Source: Nitrospirota bacterium
GTDB lineage: Bacteria; Nitrospirota; Nitrospiria; SBBL01; JAADHI01
Direction of reading: 5' to 3'
Assembly (NCBI GenBank): GCA_029261195.1
Contig: JAJDBU010000029.1
Span: 1 to 63,497, forward strand
Length of the DNA stretch: 63,497 nucleotides
Each line of letters begins with the position of its first letter. Position 1 is the stretch's first letter. Made by a program: the position numbers and the translations under genes. Below the pieces are notes generated by a model. The model searched no databases and had not been told where the DNA came from. It saw only the letters and a list, made by a program, of their open reading frames with translations. Positions 38,507 through 52,155 of this stretch are shown piece by piece.

Positions 38507-39467
38507 GCCCTCACAAGGGATCATAAGGCGAAAATGCGGTCTGCCGGTTTTATTTGCGGCCTTACTGATCACAACTGTAAGTGCCGACCCGGGGCCTAGT
38601 GAAATCGTCATTGACGCCGTCGTTGCCATCGTCGGAAACGAGATTGTAACGCAGAGTGATCTGGATCGACTTTCACTGGACAATCAGGGAAGCGGTCGCA
38701 AAGAAGATCGGACAAAACTGATCCACCGACTCATTGAAGAACGTCTAATCCTGCAAGAGGTTCGTAGAAAGCGGGTTTCTGTCAGCGATGCGGAAATTGA
38801 ATTTGCTCTAAATGACATTCAGTCGAGAAACCGTTTCCCGGACAGAGCGGCCTTTAAAAAGGCGGTCGCCTCTGAAAACCAAAGTTGGCGCAAATATGTC
38901 AGTGACCTGGAAAATCAGTTGATGATTTTAAAACTGCTGAGCAGGGAGGTCAACATCAACAACAAGGTCGACGAAACGGCAATTCGGCGCCACTATGAGA
39001 CCTATCCGGATCAATTCAGACTGCCCGATCGAGTGCGTCTGTCCCGGCTTCTCTTGAAGGGCGGTTCAGAGGCGTCTGAAGAGAAAAAGAAAGAAGTCGA
39101 GGGGAAACTGGCAACAATCTACTCCGCTTTAAAAAAGGGGAGCGCTTTTGCGGACCTGGTCAAACAATACAGCGAAGGCCCGAGAAAGGGGAAGGCCGGG
39201 GATCTGGGCTTTTTTATTCGGGGCGACCTGGCCCCGGAAATTGAACAACTCATTTCCGGACTTAAAGCAGGAGCTGTCAGCTCCCCCCGTCACACCACAC
39301 AAGACGTTCAGGTTTTCAAACTGGAAACACGGGAAGCAGGACGAAAGCGGGACTTTGAAAGCGTAAAAAAGGAAATAGAAGAACGCCTGCTCTCAGAGCA
39401 ACGGGCGACGCTTCAGGAACAATGGATCGCCGGTCTTTTTGAACAGACTTATGTGGATATTAAGTAA
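38478..39467 (+). CDS. surA: SurA-like periplasmic chaperone/peptidyl-prolyl isomerase
   Basis: 329 residues. A signal peptide (about 20-36) precedes the SurA N-domain pattern IVIDAVVAIVGNEIVTQSDLDRL and one parvulin domain (about 195-285: LLLKGGSEASEEKKKEV, AGDLGFFIRGDL). E. coli SurA has two parvulin domains; this shorter single-domain version is common outside gammaproteobacteria. Escorts outer-membrane proteins to the BAM complex, consistent with bamD in the same operon. Confidence 0.88.
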   Translation: MKNSLKSILRPSQGIIRRKCGLPVLFAALLITTVSADPGPSEIVIDAVVAIVGNEIVTQSDLDRLSLDNQGSGRKEDRTKLIHRLIEERLILQEVRRKRVSVSDAEIEFALNDIQSRNRFPDRAAFKKAVASENQSWRKYVSDLENQLMILKLLSREVNINNKVDETAIRRHYETYPDQFRLPDRVRLSRLLLKGGSEASEEKKKEVEGKLATIYSALKKGSAFADLVKQYSEGPRKGKAGDLGFFIRGDLAPEIEQLISGLKAGAVSSPRHTTQDVQVFKLETREAGRKRDFESVKKEIEERLLSEQRATLQEQWIAGLFEQTYVDIK

Positions 39468-39539
39468 TACCTGACTGCCTGGTCCGACTTTGACGTCAAA
39501 ATCACATTGAAACAGACAGGATCATCAAAAAAATGATCG

Positions 39540-39937
39540 CTAATTTTTTGTGTCTTGCGCCAGGTTTTTCCTGAAAAAATCGGCGATAGCCGTCTTGGTG
39601 GTCTTTCCCTGGGCCACATTGAGAACAGTTCCACCAATACCTTGTTTGTAATCTTAAGCATGACATCGTTTATTTCCAGAAAGACAAGGGCCGATGCAGC
39701 GCCGACCCGCTTATTGCCATCGATAAAAGGATGGTTCTGAACGATGTGAAAGAGATAGGCCGCTGCCATCTCACAGAGACCGTTATGCAGGTATTGATCG
39801 GCAAAGGCGGCTTGCGGCATCGCAACAGCGGACTCAAGAAGGCCCGTATCCCGAATACCGTGACTGCCGCCGTAGCCTTCGATCTGGTCATCGTGAATCG
39901 CCATAACGTCGTCTGCCGTGAGAAAAACGGGTGTCAT
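39540..39937 (-). pseudogene. doc: Doc/Fic-type toxin, frameshifted near its C-terminus
   Basis: The first about 103 codons read as a Doc toxin with the Fic signature HPFIDGNKRVGAA (HPFxDGNK) and N-terminal GIRDTGLLESAVAMPQAAF. Near 39627 a one-base deletion shifts the frame: the intact frame would continue VLNVAQGKTTKTAIADFF and stop at 39542-39540, while the actual frame runs on to 39449 with 60 unrelated residues. Doc toxins phosphorylate EF-Tu. The catalytic motif survives but the last helices are lost, so activity is doubtful. Three bases downstream of its antitoxin gene. Confidence 0.8.
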
Positions 39938-39940
39938 GAT

Positions 39941-40168
39941 TTACTTTGCAAGTTCTTTAAACGCAGGGGCATAACGTTGATTGACTTTTTCTAAGGCTTT
40001 TTTAAAAGCCTTCTGTCGTTTTTCATCCCGGTCCGGAGAAATAATCAGAGACTGGCCGTCTGTCGTGATGGCAAGCGGGGTATCGGCATTGATGTTCAAA
40101 AGATCCAGCACCGGCTTGTCGATGACTAAAGCCAGGCTGTTGCCATGTTTTGTAAGATGTTTGACCAT
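39941..40168 (-). CDS. AbrB/MazE-type antitoxin
   Basis: 75 residues. Swapped-hairpin AbrB domain at the N-terminus (VKHLTKHGNSLALVIDKPVL, with ITTDGQSLIISP). The charged C-terminal tail would wrap the toxin. Partner of the frameshifted doc gene, which starts three bases later. AbrB-type antitoxins with Doc toxins are a known alternative to Phd-Doc. It probably represses its own promoter. Confidence 0.85.
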   Translation of the reverse strand: MVKHLTKHGNSLALVIDKPVLDLLNINADTPLAITTDGQSLIISPDRDEKRQKAFKKALEKVNQRYAPAFKELAK

Positions 40169-40193
40169 GATTGCCCTCCAAATTTGTTCACAT

Positions 40194-40203
40194 GTATATA
40201 CAG
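40194..40203. promoter_or_regulatory. palindrome upstream of the abrB/doc module
   Basis: Perfect 10-base palindrome TGTATATACA, 26 bases ahead of the antitoxin start codon on the minus strand. Position and symmetry suit an autoregulatory operator for the AbrB-type antitoxin. The flanks are nearly but not exactly symmetric. The rest of the gap to cas5 shows only a weak promoter-like pair (TTGAAA 40301, CATGAT 40324). Confidence 0.4.
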
Positions 40204-40402
40204 TGTATGACCTTTTGTTTTTGGCGTCAATGTGGTGTATGAAGCCTGGTGCTTATTGTGGCGGTATCAGAAGGTGAAAGTGGGGCGGAAGAAAAAAGTT
40301 TTGAAAAATGTGAAATTCCGTGACATGATCTGTCCCAAAATGGGTATAGGATGGGGGTGTTGATTATTCTCCAACTTTCAATTAAATAAAAAAGGAAACC
40401 CG

Positions 40403-41047
40403 ATGAAAAAGAACTACTTGATTCAGCTTGAGATTTCTGGACCAACGGCAATCTGGACTCGGCCGGATTCAGGAGACTGTCCTGTGAGCTACCCTGCACC
40501 GACATATTCAGCGGTGAAGGGTATTTTCGAATCAATTCTGTGGATTCAGACTGTTGAAATTGTTCCGATCAAAGTTGAACTCTGTGCGCCTATCATCTAT
40601 CACGGCTATAACACCAATTATGGCGGGCCATTGCGAAAGGGAGGGGTTATTAAAACCGGTGGCAGTTATCAATTGCTCGCGTCCGTTCTGGTCAATCCAT
40701 GTTATCGGCTATTCTCAGAAGTGAAGCGGAATCAAAAGACCAATGGACAATTGACTGCCCGAACACGTGAATGGGAACAAAAAACCACTTCTTCAGAACA
40801 CGCATACAAGGACATATTCAACCGCCGTCTCATCCGAGGACAATCTTTTTCGATCCCTTTTCTGGGCTGGAAGGAGTTTGTGCCTGATTATGTCGGCCCC
40901 TTTCGCAACAGCACACGGGTAATGAATGATATTACCTTAAGAATCCCGAGCATGTTACGTCATGTTTTCCCAGACGGAGTACACAGTAAGGTGCGGTATG
41001 TCTATGATCAAGATATTGAAATAAGGAGTGGCGTTCTCACCTATTAG
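40403..41047 (+). CDS. cas5: CRISPR-associated protein Cas5 (type I-C, Cas5d)
   Basis: 214 residues. RAMP fold with the type I-C signature PAPTYSAVKGIFESILW near residue 30 and a C-terminal VRYVYDQDIE strand. In type I-C, which lacks Cas6, Cas5d cleaves the pre-crRNA at the base of the repeat hairpin and stays bound to the 5' handle. First gene of the cas operon; AGGAG within its stop region serves the next gene, 10 bases on. Confidence 0.88.
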   Translation: MKKNYLIQLEISGPTAIWTRPDSGDCPVSYPAPTYSAVKGIFESILWIQTVEIVPIKVELCAPIIYHGYNTNYGGPLRKGGVIKTGGSYQLLASVLVNPCYRLFSEVKRNQKTNGQLTARTREWEQKTTSSEHAYKDIFNRRLIRGQSFSIPFLGWKEFVPDYVGPFRNSTRVMNDITLRIPSMLRHVFPDGVHSKVRYVYDQDIEIRSGVLTY

Positions 41048-41057
41048 GAGCATACAA

Positions 41058-43184
41058 ATGCTAAATGAACTTTATGACCTGTCATTGAGTTTGGAGAAAG
41101 CGGGGATATGTCCTGAAGAATGGCATCCTGATTTCAAAGAACTACCCAAAATTTCTAAAGCAAAGCCTTGTTTTAAATTGTTAATTGGTGCTGAAGGCAC
41201 TGTTTCTGAAATTGAACCCCTTGAAAACAAACAATATCTTGACGGTATCAGAAAATGGCAATGTGGCGGTAATGGCTATTCGTTTCCTTGTTTTAATGTT
41301 CGGCCTTTGTTCACGCTTGTTACAGACGGAACAAGCGAAGAGGAAAAAGAAGAGAGGAAAAAGTATTTAACAAAATGGCTGAAAACCATCAAAAAACAGA
41401 CGGAATTTTCAGAGAATGATCTGATCAACCTTGAAGGGTATATGGTTGACGATAATCAACTTTGGAGTCCTAAACATAACGAACGTGTTGCGGACTGTTT
41501 AGACAAAATTCCAAGCCTGTTACGTGAAAGGCTTGGGGAAGCGCCAGATGAGTTCAGGGCTATTACCAAATTGATTGAGCGTTGCGGAAATATGGTGCCG
41601 GAAAAATTTTTTCAACAGCTTAAGAGTATTTTAGTAGCGCAGATTTTACGAAATCCAGGCGAGTGTGAACAGTATATTCCCTTCCTGCTTTATGCCGGGA
41701 CCAACCCACCCAATAACAATATCTCCATCATGCTTGAATTGACAGATGGCCTTTCGGCGTTTCCACGTCCTGTCGTGCACCCCAAGGTGCATCAGTGGAT
41801 TAACAGACGATTACTGATTGATGACCAAGGTTCTTCTGTTTCAGACCTTCTTTTTCCTGAAGATGGGAAAGATGCCTTCAATCAAACTGATGCGGACTGG
41901 AAAACTAAGCTTTCCGAGGTGAAGGTTCCAATTTTGGGTGGTGTTAAGCTACGCGCTATGAATTCTGAATCGTTTTGCCAAACGCGTTACGGTCGCATTG
42001 ATGCGAAATCGTTCGTCATTGGTCGTGACACTCGCAAACAAATCAAAGGAGCATTGGAATGGTTGACCGGCGAAGGGCGCCGAAACAAAACCTGGGGCAA
42101 TATTTCTTTTGCATCGGACAACGATGAAATTCTTTTGATCTATCCATCCGTACTACCAGAACGGCCCATCCCCGCTGTTTCTATGCTGGGTGGAGCCGTT
42201 CTGAAGGTTGAAGAGCAAACCACAAAATTTGTAGATTGCGCAAAAGCTGTCACCAGCGCACTACGGGCAATTCAACATCCCCTTAAAGAAGTGGAAATAC
42301 GTGTTTTCGGTCTACGAAAAATGGATAAAGCAAGGACCCAGGTCTCGTGCAATCAGCAATATACAGCCGAACGCCTCATCACCGCCGCCGAAGAATGGCA
42401 AAATGACTGCGGTAATGTTCCCTCAATCAAGATCAAACAATGGGGAAATGAGAAGGGAAAACCAGAATGGTTTGACTTGGAAACACCGTTTCCCTTTGAG
42501 GTAATTTCCTCCCTGAATACGGTATGGCCTTGTAGTGGAAAGACACCCACCCGAGTACGCACATTCTCCAGCGTAGAAGGAATAGGGCTGCTGTTGTATG
42601 AACAAACACGTTTGAATCCTTTGGCGAAAAGAGCTTTACATGTTGCAGTTATCAATGGCAGCGGCCTATTGATATCAATAGGCCATTCACAGCACCAGGG
42701 CAGGGTCCACCCAATCAGTAAAAAGTTTGAAAAACAAGCACGCATACTCCCCACAATACTCGGCTTGCTTTTAGCAAAACTTGGACAAATCAAGGAGGAT
42801 TATATGAAATCAGCACCCTATCTAATCGGCAGACTGCTCAGCTTGGCAGATCAGCTTCATTCTCACTATTGTCAGAAGGTGAGAAATGGACAAGCACCGA
42901 CCCAGCTTATGGGAAATGCACTGATGGCGACTTCCTTAGAAACACCGACAAAGGCCCTGGCCTTGTATGCCCACCGTATTCTTCCCTATCAGGCCTGGGC
43001 AAAAACAGCGCATGGAGAAGATGCGGGACTTGCAAGGTATTTTCTGGCCGAACTTGGAAAAGTCTCGTCAGATGTTGCCACTGTTGAGGTGCCGACTCGG
43101 TGCAAAGATGCAGATAAAGCCCAAATGTTGCTGGGCTATCTTGCAAGAGCGGACAAATCGGATGCAACCGGAAACAAACAATAA
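41058..43184 (+). CDS. cas8c: Cascade large subunit Cas8c (Csd1-like), divergent
   Basis: 708 residues from the ATG at 41058 (AGGAG seven bases upstream). Between cas5 and cas7, with features of the Csd1 family: N-terminal FNVRPLF, GDxL-like central part, RTRKQIKGALEWLTGEGRRNKTWGN type region and a helical C-terminus (IGRLLSLADQLHSHYC, QLMGNALMATSLETPTKAL). It recognises the PAM and holds the complex. The sequence departs clearly from the usual I-C proteins I know, so a subtype variant is possible. The C-terminal part contains its own translation start for Cas11c. Confidence 0.8.
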   Translation: MLNELYDLSLSLEKAGICPEEWHPDFKELPKISKAKPCFKLLIGAEGTVSEIEPLENKQYLDGIRKWQCGGNGYSFPCFNVRPLFTLVTDGTSEEEKEERKKYLTKWLKTIKKQTEFSENDLINLEGYMVDDNQLWSPKHNERVADCLDKIPSLLRERLGEAPDEFRAITKLIERCGNMVPEKFFQQLKSILVAQILRNPGECEQYIPFLLYAGTNPPNNNISIMLELTDGLSAFPRPVVHPKVHQWINRRLLIDDQGSSVSDLLFPEDGKDAFNQTDADWKTKLSEVKVPILGGVKLRAMNSESFCQTRYGRIDAKSFVIGRDTRKQIKGALEWLTGEGRRNKTWGNISFASDNDEILLIYPSVLPERPIPAVSMLGGAVLKVEEQTTKFVDCAKAVTSALRAIQHPLKEVEIRVFGLRKMDKARTQVSCNQQYTAERLITAAEEWQNDCGNVPSIKIKQWGNEKGKPEWFDLETPFPFEVISSLNTVWPCSGKTPTRVRTFSSVEGIGLLLYEQTRLNPLAKRALHVAVINGSGLLISIGHSQHQGRVHPISKKFEKQARILPTILGLLLAKLGQIKEDYMKSAPYLIGRLLSLADQLHSHYCQKVRNGQAPTQLMGNALMATSLETPTKALALYAHRILPYQAWAKTAHGEDAGLARYFLAELGKVSSDVATVEVPTRCKDADKAQMLLGYLARADKSDATGNKQ
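42804..43184 (+). CDS. cas11c: internally translated small subunit Cas11c
   Basis: 126 residues in the same frame as cas8c, starting at an ATG preceded by the strong ribosome-binding site AAGGAGG (42792-42798) five bases upstream. Nothing in the Cas8c reading requires such a sequence. Type I-C, I-B and I-D systems are known to make their small Cascade subunit from an internal start of the large-subunit gene, and both length and position match. The product is all-helical and starts MKSAPYLIGRLLSLADQL. Confidence 0.8.
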   Translation: MKSAPYLIGRLLSLADQLHSHYCQKVRNGQAPTQLMGNALMATSLETPTKALALYAHRILPYQAWAKTAHGEDAGLARYFLAELGKVSSDVATVEVPTRCKDADKAQMLLGYLARADKSDATGNKQ

Positions 43185-43198
43185 CGCAAGGAGGAAAC

Positions 43199-44074
43199 AT
43201 GAATAACACAGAAAATAAGATCAAACGAGCAACGGGCTTGTTGGTTATTGAAGTGATCAATTCAAATCCTAACGGTGATCCTGATCGAGAAAGTGATCCC
43301 CGACAAAGGCCCGATGGACGCGGAGAGATTTCGCCTGTTTCTTTCAAGCGAAAGTTACGCGATCTTGTTGAAGATAAGGAGGGGCCTGTTTGGCAAGCAT
43401 TAAACCCAAACAAGCAAGTAAACGATCATAAGGATACTGAGAATGCCAACAAGTTTTTCATCCTTGAGTCACGTGGACGGAACAGAACAACCATTAAGGA
43501 TGAGCTGAAAAACGGGAAGTTCACAAACAAATATTGGGATGGTCGTCTATTTGGAAATACTTTTCTGGAAGATGCAATGGATAAAGGAACAATCAAGACC
43601 GGTGTTGTCCAGTTTGGCCTCGGTGTGTCCGTGTCTCCTATTGAAATTGAGCGACATACCAATACAGTAAAAGCTGGCGTGGAAGAAGGCAAAACAGCGG
43701 GCATGGCCCCAATGGGTTATCGCTTCGTTCAACATGGTGTCTATTGTATGCCTTTTTTCGTTAATCCCAGCATGGCGCATAAATCGGGATGTACACAGCA
43801 AGATATCGATCTTTTGAAAAACCTGATTCCCTACGCCTATTCTCACACCCGCTCTCACGCCCGACCGCTCGTGGATATTCGCCACGCCTGGTATTGTGAA
43901 CACGAAAATCCCCTTGGGTCATGCTCTGATTTCGCATTGATCGAAGCCTTAACACCTAAAAAACGGAGCGAAACTAAAACGGCATCTGTTAATTGGGCGG
44001 AATATGATGTGCCAAAAAGTTTACCCGATGAACTAGATAAAAAAGTGGTCTGCCTGGATTTGATGACCCTGTGA
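43199..44074 (+). CDS. cas7: Cascade backbone Cas7 (type I-C, Csd2-like)
   Basis: 291 residues. Characteristic opening LLVIEVINSNPNGDPDRESDPR (about 14-35) and FKRKLRD, then the DGRLFGN-type segment near residue 118 with FLEDAMDKGTIKTGVVQFG. It coats the crRNA spacer as repeated subunits. AAGGAGG precedes its ATG by six bases. Its stop overlaps the cas3 start. Confidence 0.9.
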   Translation: MNNTENKIKRATGLLVIEVINSNPNGDPDRESDPRQRPDGRGEISPVSFKRKLRDLVEDKEGPVWQALNPNKQVNDHKDTENANKFFILESRGRNRTTIKDELKNGKFTNKYWDGRLFGNTFLEDAMDKGTIKTGVVQFGLGVSVSPIEIERHTNTVKAGVEEGKTAGMAPMGYRFVQHGVYCMPFFVNPSMAHKSGCTQQDIDLLKNLIPYAYSHTRSHARPLVDIRHAWYCEHENPLGSCSDFALIEALTPKKRSETKTASVNWAEYDVPKSLPDELDKKVVCLDLMTL

Positions 44075-46290
44075 TGAGTTATCTCGCACACAGCGCTCGA
44101 CCTGAAAAAGGCATTCCCGCACAGGACTACGACGAACATGTCAACAAAACGCGCCAGCACGCTTTGGAGAACGCCGAAGGTGCTGGGCGTTACTCACCAA
44201 AATACGGCAGTCTGCTAAAGGTTTCCGCCGCCCTTGCCGGAGAGTTCCATGACATGGGCAAGCTCGACGAAGAAAATCAACGAGTCCTCTCTGGAAAGGT
44301 CGCAGCAAAAAAACTTCCTGTTCAGCATGTGGATGCCGGGGTTTCTCATCTGCTTGCATTGGGTAAACAGTGGCACCAATTGGCGGCGTTCATTTCTTAT
44401 GCGCATCACATTGGTTTGCCGTCACTGCCAAAAGAGGAAAACAAGGGGAATGCTTTTTTGCGTGATCCAAAGATGGTGTCTTATACGCTAGAGCGATTAT
44501 CCGAATATCTACGAAAACACCGTGAAGATGTTGAGAAGTTCCATTTTGATTTTCCTAATTCAACGCTCCTGGACAAACCTCAGTTGTTTTTTCGGATGGC
44601 TTTGTCTTGCCTGGTTGATGCAGATCATGGTGATACAGCACGGCATTACGGAAAATCTACAACTAAAGAAGCGGAATTATTGCAGCCCTTAAAGCGTCTT
44701 AAAGCGTTAAACCAGTATGTTGAAAACTTGGGTGAAGACGATGATACAAATAATGATCGTAACCGTATTCGGCAGTGCGTCTACGAGGCTTGCCGTAATG
44801 CAGAGACGACCCCGGCGATGTATGCCTGTGACAGCCCGGTAGGTACAGGCAAAACCACGGCAATCATGTCGCACTTATTGAAAGCCGCACATGACAAAGG
44901 CTTGCGGCGCATATTTGTGGTTTTGCCCTATATCAATATCATCAAACAATCAGTCGATGTTTATCGCAAGTCTCTTCGACTCGACGGAGAGGTGTCTGAG
45001 GAGATCGTGGCGGCACACCATCACCGCGCCGATTTTCAAGACCCGGACACCCGACAGTTCACCTTGCTTTGGCGCTCACCTATTGTGGTCACCACAGCCG
45101 TTCAGTTTTTTGAAACGCTGGCAAGCAACCACCCGGCCACATTACGCAAATTGCATCACCTTTCGGGGGCCGCAGTGTTTTTTGACGAAGCCCATGCCGC
45201 TTTGCCTGCCCATTTATGGCCGCAGGCCTGGCGGTGGTTACGAGAATTGAGTGATGAATGGGGTTGTCATTTTGTGTTTGGCTCGGGTTCTCTGAATCGT
45301 TTTTGGGAGCTACCCGATTTCGTAGAACCCCCTGTAAAAATCCCTGAATTGGTAAAACCGGAAATACGAATATCTCTCGCCACCAAGGAGTCAACCCGGA
45401 TTATCTACAAACGAAAACCTGACCCACTCGACTTAAAGCGGCTAATTGCCTGGCTCGATAAGTTGGAGGGACCTCGGCTCTTAATAGTGAATACTGTCCA
45501 GTCTGCGGCAGCCATTGCCAAGGAGATCGCCGAAAAACAAGGAAGCGACAAAGTGGAACACATTTCTACTGCCTTATCCCCGATTGATCGTGAGCAAACA
45601 TTGGATCGGATAAAAGACCGGCTGTCACAATGTAAACCTCCGATGAAAAACAAAGCACTTGCTGATTGGACATTGGTTGCCACTTCTTGTGTAGAAGCAG
45701 GTGTCGATTTATCTTTCAAAACCGGTTTGCGTGAAAGCGCAAGCCTTGTCAGCTTGCTGCAAATTAGCGGGCGTGTGAACCGCCACCAGGAATACGGATG
45801 CAGCGATGTTTGGTCTTTTACCTTGCAAGCATCTAATTTACTCAGGCGTCATCCTGATTTTAAAAATTCCTCTAAAGTACTTGATCAAATGTTCGATGAA
45901 AACCGCGTCACGCCAGAGAGTTGCAAAGAAGCTTTGCGACGTGAAATATGCTTAGACATTCTGAAAGATGAAATCCGTAAACACGAAGACGCAAAAGATT
46001 TCCCAGAAGTTTGTGCATTATTCCGCGTGATTAACGCAGATACATATACGGCAGTGGTTGACGAAAACACGAAACAGCGTCTTAGAGCGGGCGAGAAAGT
46101 CCATTCGCGCGACATTCAGGCGCATAGCGTTCAAATCTGGGGGAACAAATTACAATTATTAAAAATACCCGAGTTTGTCAGATACCCCGGCCTTTATGAG
46201 TGGAATCTGGAATACGATGATTTTATTGGCTACATGTTGGGCGTTTTGAAAAACATAGAATTTAATGCAAATGGAGGTGCGATAATCTGA
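44071..46290 (+). CDS. cas3: Cas3 HD nuclease-helicase
   Basis: 739 residues, GTG start overlapping the cas7 stop (an ATG follows at once). The HD nuclease domain has GEFHDMGKLDEENQ (about 69), a downstream His in QHVDAGVSH and YAHHIGLPS (about 110). The helicase has Walker A CDSPVGTGKTTAIM (about 253), DEAH in VFFDEAHAALP (about 370), SCVEAGVDLSF and ISGRVNRHQEYG. It degrades target DNA after Cascade recruitment. In most I-C loci cas3 comes first; here it follows cas7. Confidence 0.92.
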   Translation: MMSYLAHSARPEKGIPAQDYDEHVNKTRQHALENAEGAGRYSPKYGSLLKVSAALAGEFHDMGKLDEENQRVLSGKVAAKKLPVQHVDAGVSHLLALGKQWHQLAAFISYAHHIGLPSLPKEENKGNAFLRDPKMVSYTLERLSEYLRKHREDVEKFHFDFPNSTLLDKPQLFFRMALSCLVDADHGDTARHYGKSTTKEAELLQPLKRLKALNQYVENLGEDDDTNNDRNRIRQCVYEACRNAETTPAMYACDSPVGTGKTTAIMSHLLKAAHDKGLRRIFVVLPYINIIKQSVDVYRKSLRLDGEVSEEIVAAHHHRADFQDPDTRQFTLLWRSPIVVTTAVQFFETLASNHPATLRKLHHLSGAAVFFDEAHAALPAHLWPQAWRWLRELSDEWGCHFVFGSGSLNRFWELPDFVEPPVKIPELVKPEIRISLATKESTRIIYKRKPDPLDLKRLIAWLDKLEGPRLLIVNTVQSAAAIAKEIAEKQGSDKVEHISTALSPIDREQTLDRIKDRLSQCKPPMKNKALADWTLVATSCVEAGVDLSFKTGLRESASLVSLLQISGRVNRHQEYGCSDVWSFTLQASNLLRRHPDFKNSSKVLDQMFDENRVTPESCKEALRREICLDILKDEIRKHEDAKDFPEVCALFRVINADTYTAVVDENTKQRLRAGEKVHSRDIQAHSVQIWGNKLQLLKIPEFVRYPGLYEWNLEYDDFIGYMLGVLKNIEFNANGGAII

Positions 46291-46295
46291 CGGCT

Positions 46296-46913
46296 ATGGA
46301 AAACGATATTCCCATCTCTGCATTAAACCACTATACCTACTGCCCTCGGCGTTGTGCCCTTATCCACATCGAACAGACATATAACGAAAACATCTACACA
46401 ATGCGTGGAAATGATTTGCACGAACGCACAGACAAACCCGAAGAAAGTGCATGGGAGGAAGGGATTCGTGTGGAGCGGGCACTTCCTCTTTGGCATACGG
46501 GCTTGGGCCTGATCGGAAAGGCGGATGTGGTCGAATTCCACGGAGACATCCCTTATCCGGTTGAATATAAAGCAGGCCGTTTACGAAAGTTTACCAATGA
46601 TGAGCTTCAACTCTGTGCCCAGGCCATTTGTCTGGAAGAAATGACTGGAAAGTCAGTCCCAAAAGGCGCGATTTTCCATCATGGTTCGCGAAGAAGGCGA
46701 GAGGTCATTTTTCATCAAGACTTACGAGATCTCGTTAAAACAACGGTTCAAGGCATCCGGGAACTGCTTTCATCACAGGTGATCCCGGCGCCCGTCAACG
46801 ACCAGCGCTGCCCGAATTGCTCTCTACAAGAATCCTGTATGCCATCGGCAAGTGGCGAACAGGATCGGACCTTATGTGCGCAGAAGAAGCTTTTCATGGT
46901 TTCAGATTTGTAG
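46296..46913 (+). CDS. cas4: Cas4 exonuclease, copy A
   Basis: 205 residues. RecB-type nuclease with GKADVVEFHG and PVEYKAG (Asp, Glu-x-Lys). Iron-sulfur cysteines are in YCPRRC at the N-terminus and CPNC/SC in the C-terminal part. Cas4 trims prespacers and selects the PAM end during adaptation. From the HQDLRDLV segment on (46711 onward) the DNA is almost identical to copy B, while the first about 138 residues are only roughly two-thirds identical. Separated from cas1 by 2.3 kb of TA genes and the second cas4. Confidence 0.9.
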   Translation: MENDIPISALNHYTYCPRRCALIHIEQTYNENIYTMRGNDLHERTDKPEESAWEEGIRVERALPLWHTGLGLIGKADVVEFHGDIPYPVEYKAGRLRKFTNDELQLCAQAICLEEMTGKSVPKGAIFHHGSRRRREVIFHQDLRDLVKTTVQGIRELLSSQVIPAPVNDQRCPNCSLQESCMPSASGEQDRTLCAQKKLFMVSDL

Positions 46914-47121
46914 TTTATGAATACTCCGCCTTCAAAAGAGGAAGGTGAGGAATGAACATCGAATTCAAGGAAAACATCTATGAGCATTGATCAAATCGCT
47001 AGAGAAGCCCTTCGGCTCAATCCTCGTGACAGAGCGATCCTGGCCGAAACAATATGGGAAAGCCTTGAGGACCCATATATCGTCCCATGTGAAATTTCTG
47101 ATGAGGACGCGATTGCTGTAG
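46711..47121 (+). repeat. direct repeat A (cas4 3' half plus antitoxin 5' part)
   Basis: About 410 bases that recur at 48453-48863 with some 97% identity by eye (a few substitutions and one one-base indel). The homology covers codons 139-205 of cas4, the intergenic stretch and the first about 47 codons of the addiction-module antitoxin. It stops abruptly inside the antitoxin gene. Confidence 0.85.
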
Positions 47122-47147
47122 CAACGGAGGCAGAAGCTGAAAGATAG
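46980..47147 (+). pseudogene. truncated addiction-module antitoxin (remnant)
   Basis: 55 codons starting MSIDQIAREALRLNPRDRAI, nearly identical to the intact antitoxin at 48722 up to ISDEDAIA. It then diverges to VATEAEAER and a TAG. The C-terminal toxin-binding part and the toxin gene are missing. Repair of the break left about 165 bases without a recognisable gene (47148-47312). Confidence 0.75.
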
Positions 47148-47327
47148 CGTAAGCGTGCCGAGAGATTTCGACGATTACACCGTGACGGTCGATGGGAACG
47201 ATTTACCTCCGGGTGTTACTCTGGTGTGATTGGCGGTGTGACCCTATCTGTTTAGTTCCTGACACCTGTCTTCCAAACAGTCACACCATGATAATATCGT
47301 CTTATAGCAAAAATGAGGAAGAGAAAA

Positions 47328-47540
47328 ATGGTAAGGCTCAAATATATTTTCTGGCAAGATGAAAACATGTGGATTGCTTACCTGGAGGAATACCCTGATT
47401 ACATGACCCAAGGCGAGACTAAAAATGAATTAATAGACCATCTGAAGGATATTTACGCCGAACTGAATAGCGGAAATATCCCTTGTGTCAGAAAAGTTTC
47501 GGAGCTGAAAGTGTCCCTAAGTTCGGCAGTTATTACTTAA
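47328..47540 (+). CDS. HicB-family antitoxin, orphan
   Basis: 70 residues from the ATG at 47328 (five codons after an upstream ATG at 47313). Partial RNase H-like HicB fold: KYIFWQDENMWIAYLEEYPDYMTQGETKNEL, followed by ELNSGNIPCVRKVSELKV. HicB proteins of this form normally partner a HicA mRNA-cleaving toxin. No HicA lies directly beside it; the nearest is at 47774 after a second HicB. Confidence 0.75.
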   Translation: MVRLKYIFWQDENMWIAYLEEYPDYMTQGETKNELIDHLKDIYAELNSGNIPCVRKVSELKVSLSSAVIT

Positions 47541-47558
47541 ATTCAAAGAGGTCAATCT

Positions 47559-47777
47559 ATGAAAAACGAATACACCGCAGTCCTTAAACAAGAAGGTGAT
47601 TGGTGGGTGGGATGGGTTGAGGAAGTCCCCGGCGTAAATTGCCAGGAAAGAACCTATGAAACATTAAAAGAAACCCTGTCAGTGACGCTCAAGGAAGCCC
47701 TGGAATTCAACCGCCTGGAGGCCTTAACGGCGGCGGGCAGTGAATACCGGGAAGAAAAAATCGCCGTATCTCCATGA
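47559..47777 (+). CDS. hicB: HicB-family antitoxin
   Basis: 72 residues with the compact HicB core YTAVLKQEGDWWVGWVEEVPGVNCQERTYETLKETL and a LKEALEF helix. It overlaps the start of hicA by four bases (ATGA). The antitoxin-first order is the reverse of the classical hicAB arrangement but occurs in this subfamily. No DNA-binding domain is fused, so autoregulation may need another factor. Confidence 0.82.
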   Translation: MKNEYTAVLKQEGDWWVGWVEEVPGVNCQERTYETLKETLSVTLKEALEFNRLEALTAAGSEYREEKIAVSP

Positions 47778-47962
47778 AGAGAAACAAGTTTCTCCAGTAT
47801 CTTCGCAATCATGGCTGTGTGCTCCTAAGAGAAGGGGGGAAACATTCATGGTGGCATAATCCGGCATTAAACAAACGCTCTGCAATTCCAAGACATACGG
47901 AAATACAGGATCTATTGGCAAGAAAAATATGCAAGGATTTGGGGGTGGAGCCCATCAAGTAG
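47774..47962 (+). CDS. hicA: HicA-family mRNA interferase toxin
   Basis: 62 residues, double-stranded RNA-binding-like fold: FLQYLRNHGCVLLREGGKHSWWHNPALN with the conserved His in GGKHSWW, then IPRHTEIQDLLARKICKDLGV. Full length and intact. It would cleave mRNA when unbound by HicB. Located between the two cas4 genes. Confidence 0.85.
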   Translation: MKRNKFLQYLRNHGCVLLREGGKHSWWHNPALNKRSAIPRHTEIQDLLARKICKDLGVEPIK

Positions 47963-48020
47963 CCGCTGGACAACAAGTTTAAGCTGGCATAGAAACGAGA
48001 CATAGATATAAGAATGCATC

Positions 48021-48656
48021 ATGAAAGTATCATTTATTGTAGATCATGCCCCCGTCATGATATCGGCCCTGGAACATTTCAGTTACTGCCCTCGGCAGTG
48101 CGCCTTGATCCATGTCGAGCAGACCTTCGATGAAAATATTTACACCCTGCGCGGTCAGGCAGTGCATCGCCGGGTGGACGAAGTGAAAACGGAATATCAG
48201 GAGGGTGTCCGTATCGAACGAGCGCTGCCCCTTTGGAGTCATCATTTGGGTTTGATCGGTAAGGCCGACGTCGTTGAATTTCACGGAAAAGTCCCCTATC
48301 CGGTCGAATACAAACACGGTTCCCGAAGAAAAAAAGAACACGACGATCTTCAACTCTGCGCACAAGCAATCTGCCTGGAAGAGATGACGGGAGAAACTGT
48401 GCCGAAAGGTGCCATTTTTCACCACAGCTCACGACGGAGACGGGAAGTTGTATTTCATCAAGACTTACGAGATCTCGTTAAAACAACGGTTCAAGGCATC
48501 CGGGAACTGCTTTCATCACAGGTGATCCCGGCGCCCGTCAATGACCAGCGTTGCCCGAATTGCTCTCTACAGGAATCCTGTATGCCATCGGCAAGTGGCG
48601 AACAGGATCGGACCTTATGTGCGCAGAAGAAGCTTTTCATGGTTTCAGATTTGTAG
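48021..48656 (+). CDS. cas4: Cas4 exonuclease, copy B
   Basis: 211 residues, intact. Same layout as copy A: YCPRQC, GKADVVEFHG, PVEYKHG and the C-terminal CPNC cluster. The N-terminal 140 residues are about two-thirds identical to copy A; the last 66 residues are identical. An in-frame second ATG (MISALEHFSYCP) gives the more typical N-terminus. Closest cas4 to cas1-cas2. Confidence 0.9.
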   Translation: MKVSFIVDHAPVMISALEHFSYCPRQCALIHVEQTFDENIYTLRGQAVHRRVDEVKTEYQEGVRIERALPLWSHHLGLIGKADVVEFHGKVPYPVEYKHGSRRKKEHDDLQLCAQAICLEEMTGETVPKGAIFHHSSRRRREVVFHQDLRDLVKTTVQGIRELLSSQVIPAPVNDQRCPNCSLQESCMPSASGEQDRTLCAQKKLFMVSDL

Positions 48657-48863
48657 TTTATGAGCACTCCGCCTTCAAAAGAGGAAGGTAGGAATGAACA
48701 TCAAATTCAAGGAGAACATCTATGAGCATTGATCAAATCGCTAGCGAAGCCCTGCGGCTCAATCCTCGTGACAGGGCGATCCTAGCCGAAACAATATGGG
48801 AAAGCCTTGAGGACCCATATCTCGTCCCATGTGAAATTTCTGATGAGGACGCGATTGCTTTAG
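48453..48863 (+). repeat. direct repeat B (cas4 3' half plus antitoxin 5' part)
   Basis: Counterpart of the segment at 46711-47121, offset about 1742 bases. Here the antitoxin continues intact into its toxin gene, so this is probably the parental arrangement. Confidence 0.85.
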
Positions 48864-48946
48864 CGCGAAAGCGTGACGAGGAAATTGAAAAGGGAAAAGT
48901 TAAACCCTTATCTCATGAAGAACTCATGAGAAAGCTACGTAATTGA
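48722..48946 (+). CDS. addiction-module antitoxin (TIGR02574-like)
   Basis: 74 residues: MSIDQIASEALRLNPRDRAI, AETIWESLEDP and a charged end DEEIEKGKVKPLSHEELMRKL. This is the short antitoxin family usually followed by a ParE/RelE toxin, as here. The toxin start codon overlaps its stop (TTGA). Confidence 0.85.
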   Translation: MSIDQIASEALRLNPRDRAILAETIWESLEDPYLVPCEISDEDAIALARKRDEEIEKGKVKPLSHEELMRKLRN

Positions 48947-49236
48947 AAGTTGAATACCATCCTGAAATTGAGCATGAGTTACGACAAATCATTGATTTCT
49001 ACAATGAACGCTCTTCGGGCCTGGGGATACAATTTTTGAATGAGTTTGAAAAACAGATTTTGAATATCACGTCTATGCCAACCCGATGGCTGATTGTTAA
49101 AGCCGATCTCCGACGCTCGTTGATGAAACGATTTCCTTACGTTATCTATTTCCGGGTATTGAAAAATAACGTGCTTCGAGTGACAGCAGTTAAGCACCAA
49201 CGCAGGTATCCTGATTATGGTCTCGGTAGAAAATAA
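48943..49236 (+). CDS. ParE/RelE-family toxin
   Basis: 97 residues, TTG start overlapping the antitoxin stop. RelE fold: VEYHPEIEHELRQIIDFYNERS, LRRSLMKRFPYVIYFRVL and VTAVKHQRRYPDYG. ParE-like members inhibit gyrase, RelE-like ones cleave mRNA; the sequence alone does not decide. Intact, and only 17 bases before cas1, so a polar effect or co-expression with cas1-cas2 is expected. Confidence 0.85.
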   Translation: MKVEYHPEIEHELRQIIDFYNERSSGLGIQFLNEFEKQILNITSMPTRWLIVKADLRRSLMKRFPYVIYFRVLKNNVLRVTAVKHQRRYPDYGLGRK

Positions 49237-49253
49237 ATATTGAGAATCACGTC

Positions 49254-50285
49254 ATGCACCAGCTTTTAAACACACTCTACATCACCACCGAAGGGGCCTA
49301 TCTCCATCTCGACCACGACACGCTTAAAGTCGAGATTGCGAAAGAAACCAAACTTCAAGTTCCCGTGCATCATTTAGGTGGCGTTGTTTGTTTCGGAAAC
49401 GTCATGCTCAGCCCGGCGGCAATGGCCCGCTGTGCGGCGGATGGCCGCTTTGTGGTGCTGCTTGATCGTAATGGGCGGTTCAAGGCCCGCGTTGAAGGGC
49501 CGGTTTCAGGGAATGTCCTTTTAAGAACTGCACAGCATGAAGCGATGGCAGACCTGAAAAAGTCTCTCGAACTCGCCAGAAACATGGTTGCGGGCAAGCT
49601 TCAAAACAGCCGTCAAATTGTCCTTCGAGGTCGGCGGGAAAGCACAAATGAAGAGGACAGACAGATATTGAAAAAAACAGGCGTTCACCTGGCAAGCGCC
49701 CTGTCTCGTCTTCCGGCTTCTAAGGACATTGATTCCGTTCGTGGCATTGAGGGCGAATCTGCAAGGGCCTATTTTTCGTCATTTGATCGCATGGTACGTG
49801 AAGATCGCGAAACTTTTCGCTTTAATGGCCGAAACAGACGCCCGCCGCGTGACCCGGTGAATGCCCTGATTTCTTTTCTCTATGCCTTGTTGATGAATGA
49901 CTGCGTGGCCGGGGCCGAAGGCGTTGGGCTTGATCCTCAAATGGGTTTTTTGCACGCGATTCGACCGGGACGGGCCGCACTGGCATTGGACTTGATGGAA
50001 GAGCTTCGCTCTGTTCTTGCGGATCGATTGGCGCTTACATTAATCAACCGGAAACAGATCAAAGCAAAACACTTTATCGACAGACCCGGTGGAGCGGTTC
50101 ATTTGAATGACGATGGCCGAAGGGAAGTTGTCGTCGCCTATCAAAAACGGAAACAGGAAGAAGTCACTCATCCCCTTCTGAATCAAAAAATGCCTCTGGG
50201 TTTAATCCCCCATGTGCAGGCGCGTTTGCTTGCACGAACACTGCGAGGAGACATGGAAGCCTATATCCCTTATCTTTACCGCTGA
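49254..50285 (+). CDS. cas1: CRISPR integrase Cas1 (type I-C)
   Basis: 343 residues, usual I-C length. Beta-rich N-domain ([20 protein letters not shown]) and helical C-domain with the metal ligands in [15 protein letters not shown] (Glu, about 166), [19 protein letters not shown] (His and Asp/Glu, about 223-243). It inserts prespacers at the leader end. Six residues of overlap with nothing; cas2 follows after 8 bases. Confidence 0.95.
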
Positions 50286-50293
50286 GAGATCGC

Positions 50294-50584
50294 ATGCTTA
50301 TTGTAGTGACATATGATGTTTCAACGGAAACACGGGAGGGCCGACGGCGGCTGCGTCATATCGCCCAGGCCTGTAAAAATTTCGGGCAACGTGTGCAGTA
50401 CTCTGTATTTGAATGCACTGTCACTGCAATGCAGTATGAAGAATTAAGGCGAAGACTCTTGAGTATTATCGAAGAAAAAGAAGACAGACTTCGGATTTAT
50501 CGTCTTACCGAACCCAGGGAAAAGTATATTGAGATTTACGGGCTTGACGGGACGGTTGATTTTGAAGGGCCATTGCTGGTTTAA
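50294..50584 (+). CDS. cas2: Cas2 (type I-C)
   Basis: 96 residues. Ferredoxin-like fold with [41 protein letters not shown] and the I-C style end [20 protein letters not shown]. Dimeric bridge between Cas1 dimers. Last gene before the leader. Confidence 0.95.
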
Positions 50585-50761: not shown

Positions 50762-51880
50762 GTCGCATCCGCCCTTCGGGGCGGGTGAGGATTGAAACAA
50801 CTGTTTGTCGGTATCGTTGCCAGGGCCGCCGACGTCGCATCCGCCCTTCGGGGCGGGTGAGGATTGAAACTTCTGGAGAAATAAAACGGCCTTCGATGCC
50901 GGGGAGGTCGCATCCGCCCTTCGGGGCGGGTGAGGATTGAAACACCACTGGCACTATATCAAGCTTTATGCCAGTGGTGCGTCGCATCCGCCCTTCGGGG
51001 CGGGTGAGGATTGAAACAACAGATGCACCATTTGAGATCGGACATCTTCTGGTCGCATCCGCCCTTCGGGGCGGGTGAGGATTGAAACTCCATTGCGCCC
51101 CAGCAGGGACAGTGTAGGTGAAAGTCGCATCCGCCCTTCGGGGCGGGTGAGGATTGAAACAAATTAGCCCCGACAGCGGGATTCGCATCCGCAAGTCGCA
51201 TCCGCCCTTCGGGGCGGGTGAGGATTGAAACGGTGTGAAGGGATGTTACTTGGATCATCGGTGAAACGTCGCATCCGCCCTTCGGGGCGGGTGAGGATTG
51301 AAACGAGCGTCGAGCCAGACGACCGGACAGAGACGGAGAGTCGCATCCGCCCTTCGGGGCGGGTGAGGATTGAAACAAGAAATTGAACCTATCACAAAAA
51401 ATCACCAAGAGTCGCATCCGCCCTTCGGGGCGGGTGAGGATTGAAACCATAGACGAACCTTCTTTCCTCACTATCTCAAGATAGTCGCATCCGCCCTTCG
51501 GGGCGGGTGAGGATTGAAACGGAGGATAGTCCTAAAAACACGAGGGATTACATTTGTCGCATCCGCCCTTCGGGGCGGGTGAGGATTGAAACTACAAAAT
51601 GCACGCAGCAAACGGGAATACTGACGGGTCGCATCCGCCCTTCGGGGCGGGTGAGGATTGAAACGATTCGCTCCGGTCTACCGAACCCGACGTGCTTAAG
51701 GTCGCATCCGCCCTTCGGGGCGGGTGAGGATTGAAACCGTGCTGATCATACCCGGATCACGATATGGCGATGTCGCATCCGCCCTTCGGGGCGGGTGAGG
51801 ATTGAAACACCCCTGGCACTGTAGCAAGCCTTGTGACAGTGGTGTCGCATCCGCCCTTCGGGGCGGGTGAGGATTGAAAC
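50762..51880 (+). CRISPR. CRISPR array, 16 repeats and 15 spacers (type I-C-like repeat)
   Basis: Sixteen identical 37-base repeats that start GTCGCATCC, contain the hairpin CCGCCC-TTC-GGGGCGG and end GATTGAAAC. Starts at 50762, 50834, 50907, 50981, 51052, 51124, 51195, 51268, 51340, 51411, 51484, 51556, 51628, 51701, 51772 and 51844. Spacers are 34-37 bases. The GATTGAAAC end fixes transcription rightward, in line with the cas genes. Spacers 3 (50944-50980) and 15 (51809-51843) are homologous to each other. Confidence 0.99.
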
Positions 51881-51923
51881 GATGAGTAAAAGATACAAAT
51901 CTAATGTCAGAAAAGCAACTTTC

Positions 51924-52155
51924 ATGAATAATCCGCTGATTCGAGTCATGGCCCTGCACGCCCTTGCCTATTGCGAACGCCTTTTCTATCTGGAAGAGGT
52001 CGAAGAAATCCGCGTCGCCGATGCCTCGGCTTAAAAAGGTCGATTGCCTTCGCAGAAGAGATGGCCGACTGATTCCCTGCGACCACAAACGGGGCCGATG
52101 TCGGCCAGTGAATCAATCTGTGATACCGAAAGGCCTTGAGCACCCCTTAAGTTGA
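51924..52155 (+). pseudogene. remnant of a cas4 domain of the cas4-cas1 fusion type
   Basis: The segment from ATG 51924 reads NNPLIRVMALHALAYCERLF then YLEEVEEIRVADA, the start of Cas4 in Cas4-Cas1 fusion proteins (type I-G, formerly I-U, and relatives), and stops at a TAA near 52034. The next frame resumes with KKVDCLRRRDGRLIPCDHKR GRCRP, the nuclease-core segment of the same domain. About 50 codons between them are missing. Nothing of the Cas1 part remains. It lies 43 bases beyond the last repeat. Confidence 0.75.

Follow-up and report, generated by a model that had tools for sequence, protein, structure and literature searches.

Type I-MYXAN CRISPR-Cas systems (also dev or MxI-B) are known from Myxococcus and Nitrospira moscoviensis; MxI-B repeats are 36 bp long and end in TTGAGCAC, and the Cas1 protein is fused to Cas4 (PMC11237760). 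Such loci have been lost in Myxococcus, where residual sequence stays behind (PMC11237760), while an orphan type I-F array in E. coli has outlived the loss of its cas genes and keeps spacers that match I-F cas genes (PMC8616872). A fused Cas4-Cas1 is found in type I-G as well.

The locus described here lies in a 63,497-nucleotide stretch of a Nitrospirota genome (the window), directly behind a type I-C array that looks functional (Table 1). It is of a known kind, the decayed CRISPR remnant, to which it adds a case from the Nitrospirota at a late stage of loss. We interpret about 255 bp (51889-52143) as what remains of a type I-MYXAN locus that the bacterium gained and later lost, and put the probability of this reading at roughly 0.93. 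The relic resembles intact I-MYXAN systems in the branch of its Cas4-Cas1 fusion, in its repeat core and in a 36-bp repeat with the same ending, but it has kept just a Cas4 fragment and one repeat, with no effector, Cas1, Cas2 or spacers. As in Myxococcus, the same subtype was lost and left residual sequence, although in the window this residue belongs to a member of the Nitrospirota, adjoins an I-C array and has resolved junctions. Unlike the E. coli remnant, it holds no spacer of the lost system. The type I-G fusion is much more distant in sequence and goes with a different repeat.

Table 1. Features of the relic and of the wider locus in the window.
Feature	Position	Strand	Comparison or basis
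doc/phd-like toxin-antitoxin pair preceding the cas operon	39449..40168	-	DNA match 39510-40220 to CRISPR loci or ghosts of G007, G013, G014, G011 and G021
57-bp match to the end of a WYL regulator gene (wider locus)	40233..40289	+	G007 WYL gene, 3' end: 79% identity
Operator- or promoter-like stretch with TGTGA motifs, upstream of the first cas gene	40284..40355	+	Common to G007 (I-E): score 40 (highest of 500 shuffles, 30)
I-C-like operon cas5-cas8c-cas7-cas3-cas4-(TA genes)-cas4-cas1-cas2, outside the relic	40403..50584	+	NCBIfam; same operon in G021
Type I-C array, 16 identical 37-bp repeats and 15 spacers, outside the relic	50762..51880	+	
Relic Cas4 piece 1 (cas4-cas1 fusion gene)	51889..52027	+	Frame open 51882-52034; G007 contig C89 29018-29157: 86-87% DNA identity (139 bp), 31/35 amino acids
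Relic Cas4 piece 2, same domain	52025..52112	+	+1 frame past 85-bp deletion relative to G007; C89 29240-29331: 82-87% DNA identity, 21/23 amino acids
Single relic CRISPR repeat, I-MYXAN type, GTGAATCAATCTGTGATACCGAAAGGCCTTGAGCAC	52108..52143	+	32 of 36 positions as in the single G007 repeat; core common to the N. moscoviensis and Rokubacteria MAG arrays

Cas4 pieces and lone repeat behind the type I-C array

The original prediction held that two frames past the last I-C repeat encode separate parts of a Cas4 domain of the Cas4-Cas1 fusion type, and the positions of both were confirmed. The first frame, open for 50 codons, ends in MNNPLIRVMALHALAYCERLFYLEEVEEIRVADASA followed by a stop; the second is a plus-strand +1 frame that ends at 52155 and contains KKVDCLRRRDGRLIPCDHKRGRC. 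When searched against Cas4-Cas1 fusions, both pieces matched far above shuffled sequences and best in the MYXAN branch: against the intact N. moscoviensis fusion, piece 1 scored 141 (maximum of 1000 shuffles, 48) and piece 2 scored 97 (maximum of 1000 shuffles, 46). NCBIfam gave weak matches to positions 1-26 of cas4g_cas1g (E = 0.0026 for piece 1 and 0.00011 for both joined), and Pfam and PDB scans of the pieces, which are short for single-sequence searches, returned no match. Judged by these comparisons of sequence, window 51889-52112 is the shattered Cas4 domain of a cas4-cas1 fusion gene, whose fused state we infer from G007 (a relative described below) and the loci L064 and L065 because the Cas1 part is absent from the window.

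The second frame proved to be Cas4 only as far as 52112. Its tail, PVNQSVIPKGLEHPLS, is a CRISPR repeat read as codons rather than protein, since the core of this sequence forms arrays beside intact cas1_MYXAN genes elsewhere and matches the MxI-B repeat ending. The repeat in the window is mutated, and its 36 bp recur 3' of cas2 in G007. Chance expectation for the repeat pattern was 0 matches, but the pattern was taken from the window and G007 copies, and independent support therefore comes from the arrays of relatives. In both N. moscoviensis and a Rokubacteria MAG an array follows cas2, and GATGCCGAAAGGCGTTGAGCAC is the 3' core common to the repeats. A scan of 270 class genomes, allowing up to two mismatches, found the core arranged in arrays in G431 and G204 only, both with an intact cas1_MYXAN; as a single copy it is present in the window genome, in G007 and in three further genomes. 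Orphan MYXAN repeat cores are present without a MYXAN cas1 in G478, G159 and G393 (L122 1500-1527; L120 1501-1608; L124 1484-1527) and may be further ghosts; G159 has a second, weaker copy near the first.

As to subtype, a type I-G-like adaptation module had been proposed, and this assignment did not hold. Four MYXAN fusions gave the pieces scores of 268, 259, 248 and 238, and none of 28 I-G-type fusions of the same phylum exceeded 107, under half of these values; the repeats beside the I-G-type fusions, ending or starting with CCCCATTGAAGC or similar, are unlike 52108-52143. The ghost is thus I-MYXAN and not I-G, and the intact relatives of its module are of the MYXAN subtype by TIGR03983, TIGR02807, TIGR03485 and TIGR02586. 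Its remaining Cas4 part falls in the MYXAN branch and its repeat has the MYXAN length and ending, while no cas1_MYXAN is left. That a type I-G adaptation module decayed here after serving the I-C array seems to us very improbable: the best NCBIfam match of the short pieces is indeed the I-G model, though the Cas4 half has no MYXAN model, and relatives of the G007 WYL regulator adjoin I-G operons in G011 and G014, but besides the fusion scores and repeats just given, the I-C array differs in repeat and comes with a cas1-cas2 of its own.

The relic is likewise foreign to the I-C locus, as had been supposed. The two Cas4 proteins of the I-C operon score just 35-37 and 26-29 against the pieces, and the relic repeat is unlike the I-C repeat. 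A decayed second system flanking the I-C array is therefore what the window contains; the suggestion that it once served this array is unsupported, as the I-C repeat is unrelated, the I-C operon includes a cas4-cas1-cas2 set, and the relic still contains its own repeat.

The I-C locus has several features of its own. Its effectors (40403-46290) fall under the NCBIfam cut-offs (Cas8c 25 bits, Cas7 120 bits), with cas3 after cas7, and the same divergent operon is carried by G021, with cas5, cas7 and cas1 68-76% identical. Between 46296 and 48656 lie two cas4 genes that hardly differ in their 3' halves, together with a duplicated ORF resembling RHH-type antitoxins; HicAB-like genes stand between the two cas4 genes, with a RelE-like gene next, and the related operon of G021 has one cas4. 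Spacers 3 and 15 (50944-50980 and 51809-51843) are alike, each with an inverted repeat of the CACTGGCA...TGCCAGTG type, which might point to a repeated palindromic element as their source. The idea that I-C spacers target MYXAN genes was dropped: the 15 spacers had no match beyond 12-13 bases in the MYXAN loci fetched.

A less decayed copy and intact relatives

Among 58 genomes (the window's own and its relatives), one other matched the pieces strongly: G007, a MAG of the same family, whose contig C89 (JALUVJ010000089.1, labelled Nitrospira sp.) carries them in a single open frame at 89% and 79% amino acid identity. There a Cas4 ORF of 186 residues is followed by a MYXAN-type Cas1 without its first ~100-110 residues, by cas2 and by a single repeat. 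The G007 cas4-cas1 (L062 10034-11604) is itself broken, the C-terminal part of Cas4 and the N-terminal part of Cas1 being absent, and is preceded by a type I-E array as well as by a pair of PemK/MazF-like genes.

Compared with G007, 85 bp are missing from cas4 in the window, and owing to this internal deletion the domain now lies in two reading frames. A second loss, about 1.58 kb by blastn coordinates, runs from cas4 to a point past cas2; its junction was blurred in the MAFFT alignment with G007 and was resolved by local blastn. This deletion took the rest of cas4-cas1, cas2 and the leader, and the lone repeat stands at its right edge. A relative with an intact gene at this spot, for which the original prediction had called, was thus found in part: the less decayed G007 copy stands beside another array, while intact systems were found only elsewhere in the class and no strain with an intact MYXAN locus at this very spot was found.

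A contig search added two more relatives, N. moscoviensis and the Rokubacteria MAG. N. moscoviensis (NZ_CP011801.1) has a complete I-MYXAN system by NCBIfam, with cas6_cmx6, Cas3, Cas8a1 (csx13), Cas7 DevR, Cas5 DevS, Cas4/Cas1 (TIGR03983, 502 bits) and Cas2. Its array (L065 14999-17445) is interrupted by two ORFs resembling IS21-type istA/istB. Judged by Cas1, 3 of 270 genomes of the class carry I-MYXAN.

The window genome (99% complete, 77 contigs) has one Cas1, that of type I-C, and MYXAN cas7 and cas8 (cas8a1) were not found in it in searches run without a positive control. With Cas1 and Cas2 entirely missing, most of Cas4 lost and a cas4-cas1-cas2 set belonging to the I-C array itself, the relic would have no adaptation function today; neither adaptation nor interference activity is expected, and it probably does nothing now. 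Could it nonetheless be kept for some function, such as a small protein from the first frame or a regulatory RNA from the lone repeat? The 50 open codons and the 32 repeat positions shared with G007 would fit such a role, but the frame stops at the deletion scar, a G-to-A change has struck the 5' side of the repeat's inner inverted pair GCC/GGC, and the window and G007 copies have decayed along different lines; we give retention for function hardly any credence.

Origin and course of decay

The window and G007 agree at 87% (139 bp), 87% (79 bp) and 89% (repeat) of positions in the relic DNA, although it is broken in both genomes; the values for orthologous genes are 62% for FabH, 60% for SurA, 58% for a PpiC tail and 65% for a GGDEF gene. 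Decaying DNA is not expected to outdo living genes by descent alone, and these four gene pairs suggest that the module probably reached one or both lineages by horizontal transfer. Such modules can move, as MYXAN fusions are present on seven cyanobacterial plasmids. Chromosomal synteny of the insertion site was not demonstrable, surA and the GGDEF gene lying on different contigs in relatives.

The likely course of events is as follows. An I-MYXAN locus was gained, probably by horizontal transfer. The start of its cas4-cas1 gene was broken by the 85-bp deletion, and the second deletion (~1.6 kb relative to G007, which itself is without part of Cas1) joined the cas4 remnant to one repeat of the array. 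Collapse of an array to one repeat through recombination between its repeats is an ordinary expectation, and the MYXAN array presumably shrank in this way. The effector genes may have gone before the I-C locus now adjoining the relic arrived, or at the same time.

A possible unit upstream of the cas operon

In G007, counterparts of the doc/phd pair, the WYL piece and the TGTGA stretch all lie immediately ahead of the type I-E operon; the doc/phd pairs of G007 and the window are 73% identical, and the G007 part of the TGTGA stretch also matches G014 (I-G). WYL orthologues and doc/phd precede the type I-G operons of G011 and G014, and G021, from another family, has doc/phd and a piece of WYL ahead of the I-C operon that is also found in the window. 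G013 has doc/phd and WYL remnants, with no cas genes within the 19 kb read. In a search of 270 genomes with the doc/phd DNA, the five best matches were the window, G007, G013, G014 and G011, with G021 seventh. The cas promoter region of the window (40169-40402) keeps the operator-like motif, and no full WYL gene of the G007 family was seen in the window genome, which would leave the putative operator without its regulator here.

The WYL fragment was considered as the left border of the MYXAN ghost, and as a sole reading this was dropped. G021 has the I-C operon, doc/phd and the WYL fragment and no MYXAN relic in the 18 kb read, and the G007 WYL protein is nearer to the I-G-associated proteins (59-61% identity) than to the one at the N. 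moscoviensis MYXAN locus (42%).

Another possibility, which we regard as tentative and as falling somewhat short of even odds, is that doc/phd, WYL and operator hold together as a unit and complete cas cassettes (I-C, I-E, I-G) are exchanged behind it, the MYXAN relic coming from an earlier occupant or neighbour. The window and G007 share both flanks of the cas cassette and not the cassette itself, they have the motif upstream of the first cas gene in common, and the unit also stands ahead of the I-G operons and of the G021 I-C operon. On the other hand, the left flank is 73% and the right flank 87% identical, so the two need not come from one event; outer neighbours differ between genomes, so the site is not fixed in the chromosome; doc/phd and WYL do not always come in the same order; and G021 combines the I-C operon and the left unit with no MYXAN relic in the 18 kb read. 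The varying outer flanks and the unequal identities keep our confidence at this level. We are slightly more doubtful still of the general form, namely that in this Nitrospirota class doc/phd, WYL and operator would stay together while the cassette is swapped among the three subtypes, with relics like the MYXAN fragment marking earlier occupants. We found little literature on cassette exchange at one locus.

The relic indicates that I-MYXAN systems are being gained and lost in this class, and together with G007 it offers two decay stages of one module, each beside another CRISPR type. If cassettes are indeed exchanged behind a shared unit, one type of regulator and operator would control unrelated CRISPR subtypes, and it would become testable how these subtypes replace one another and whether the shared WYL regulator and toxin-antitoxin pair help to keep the locus.
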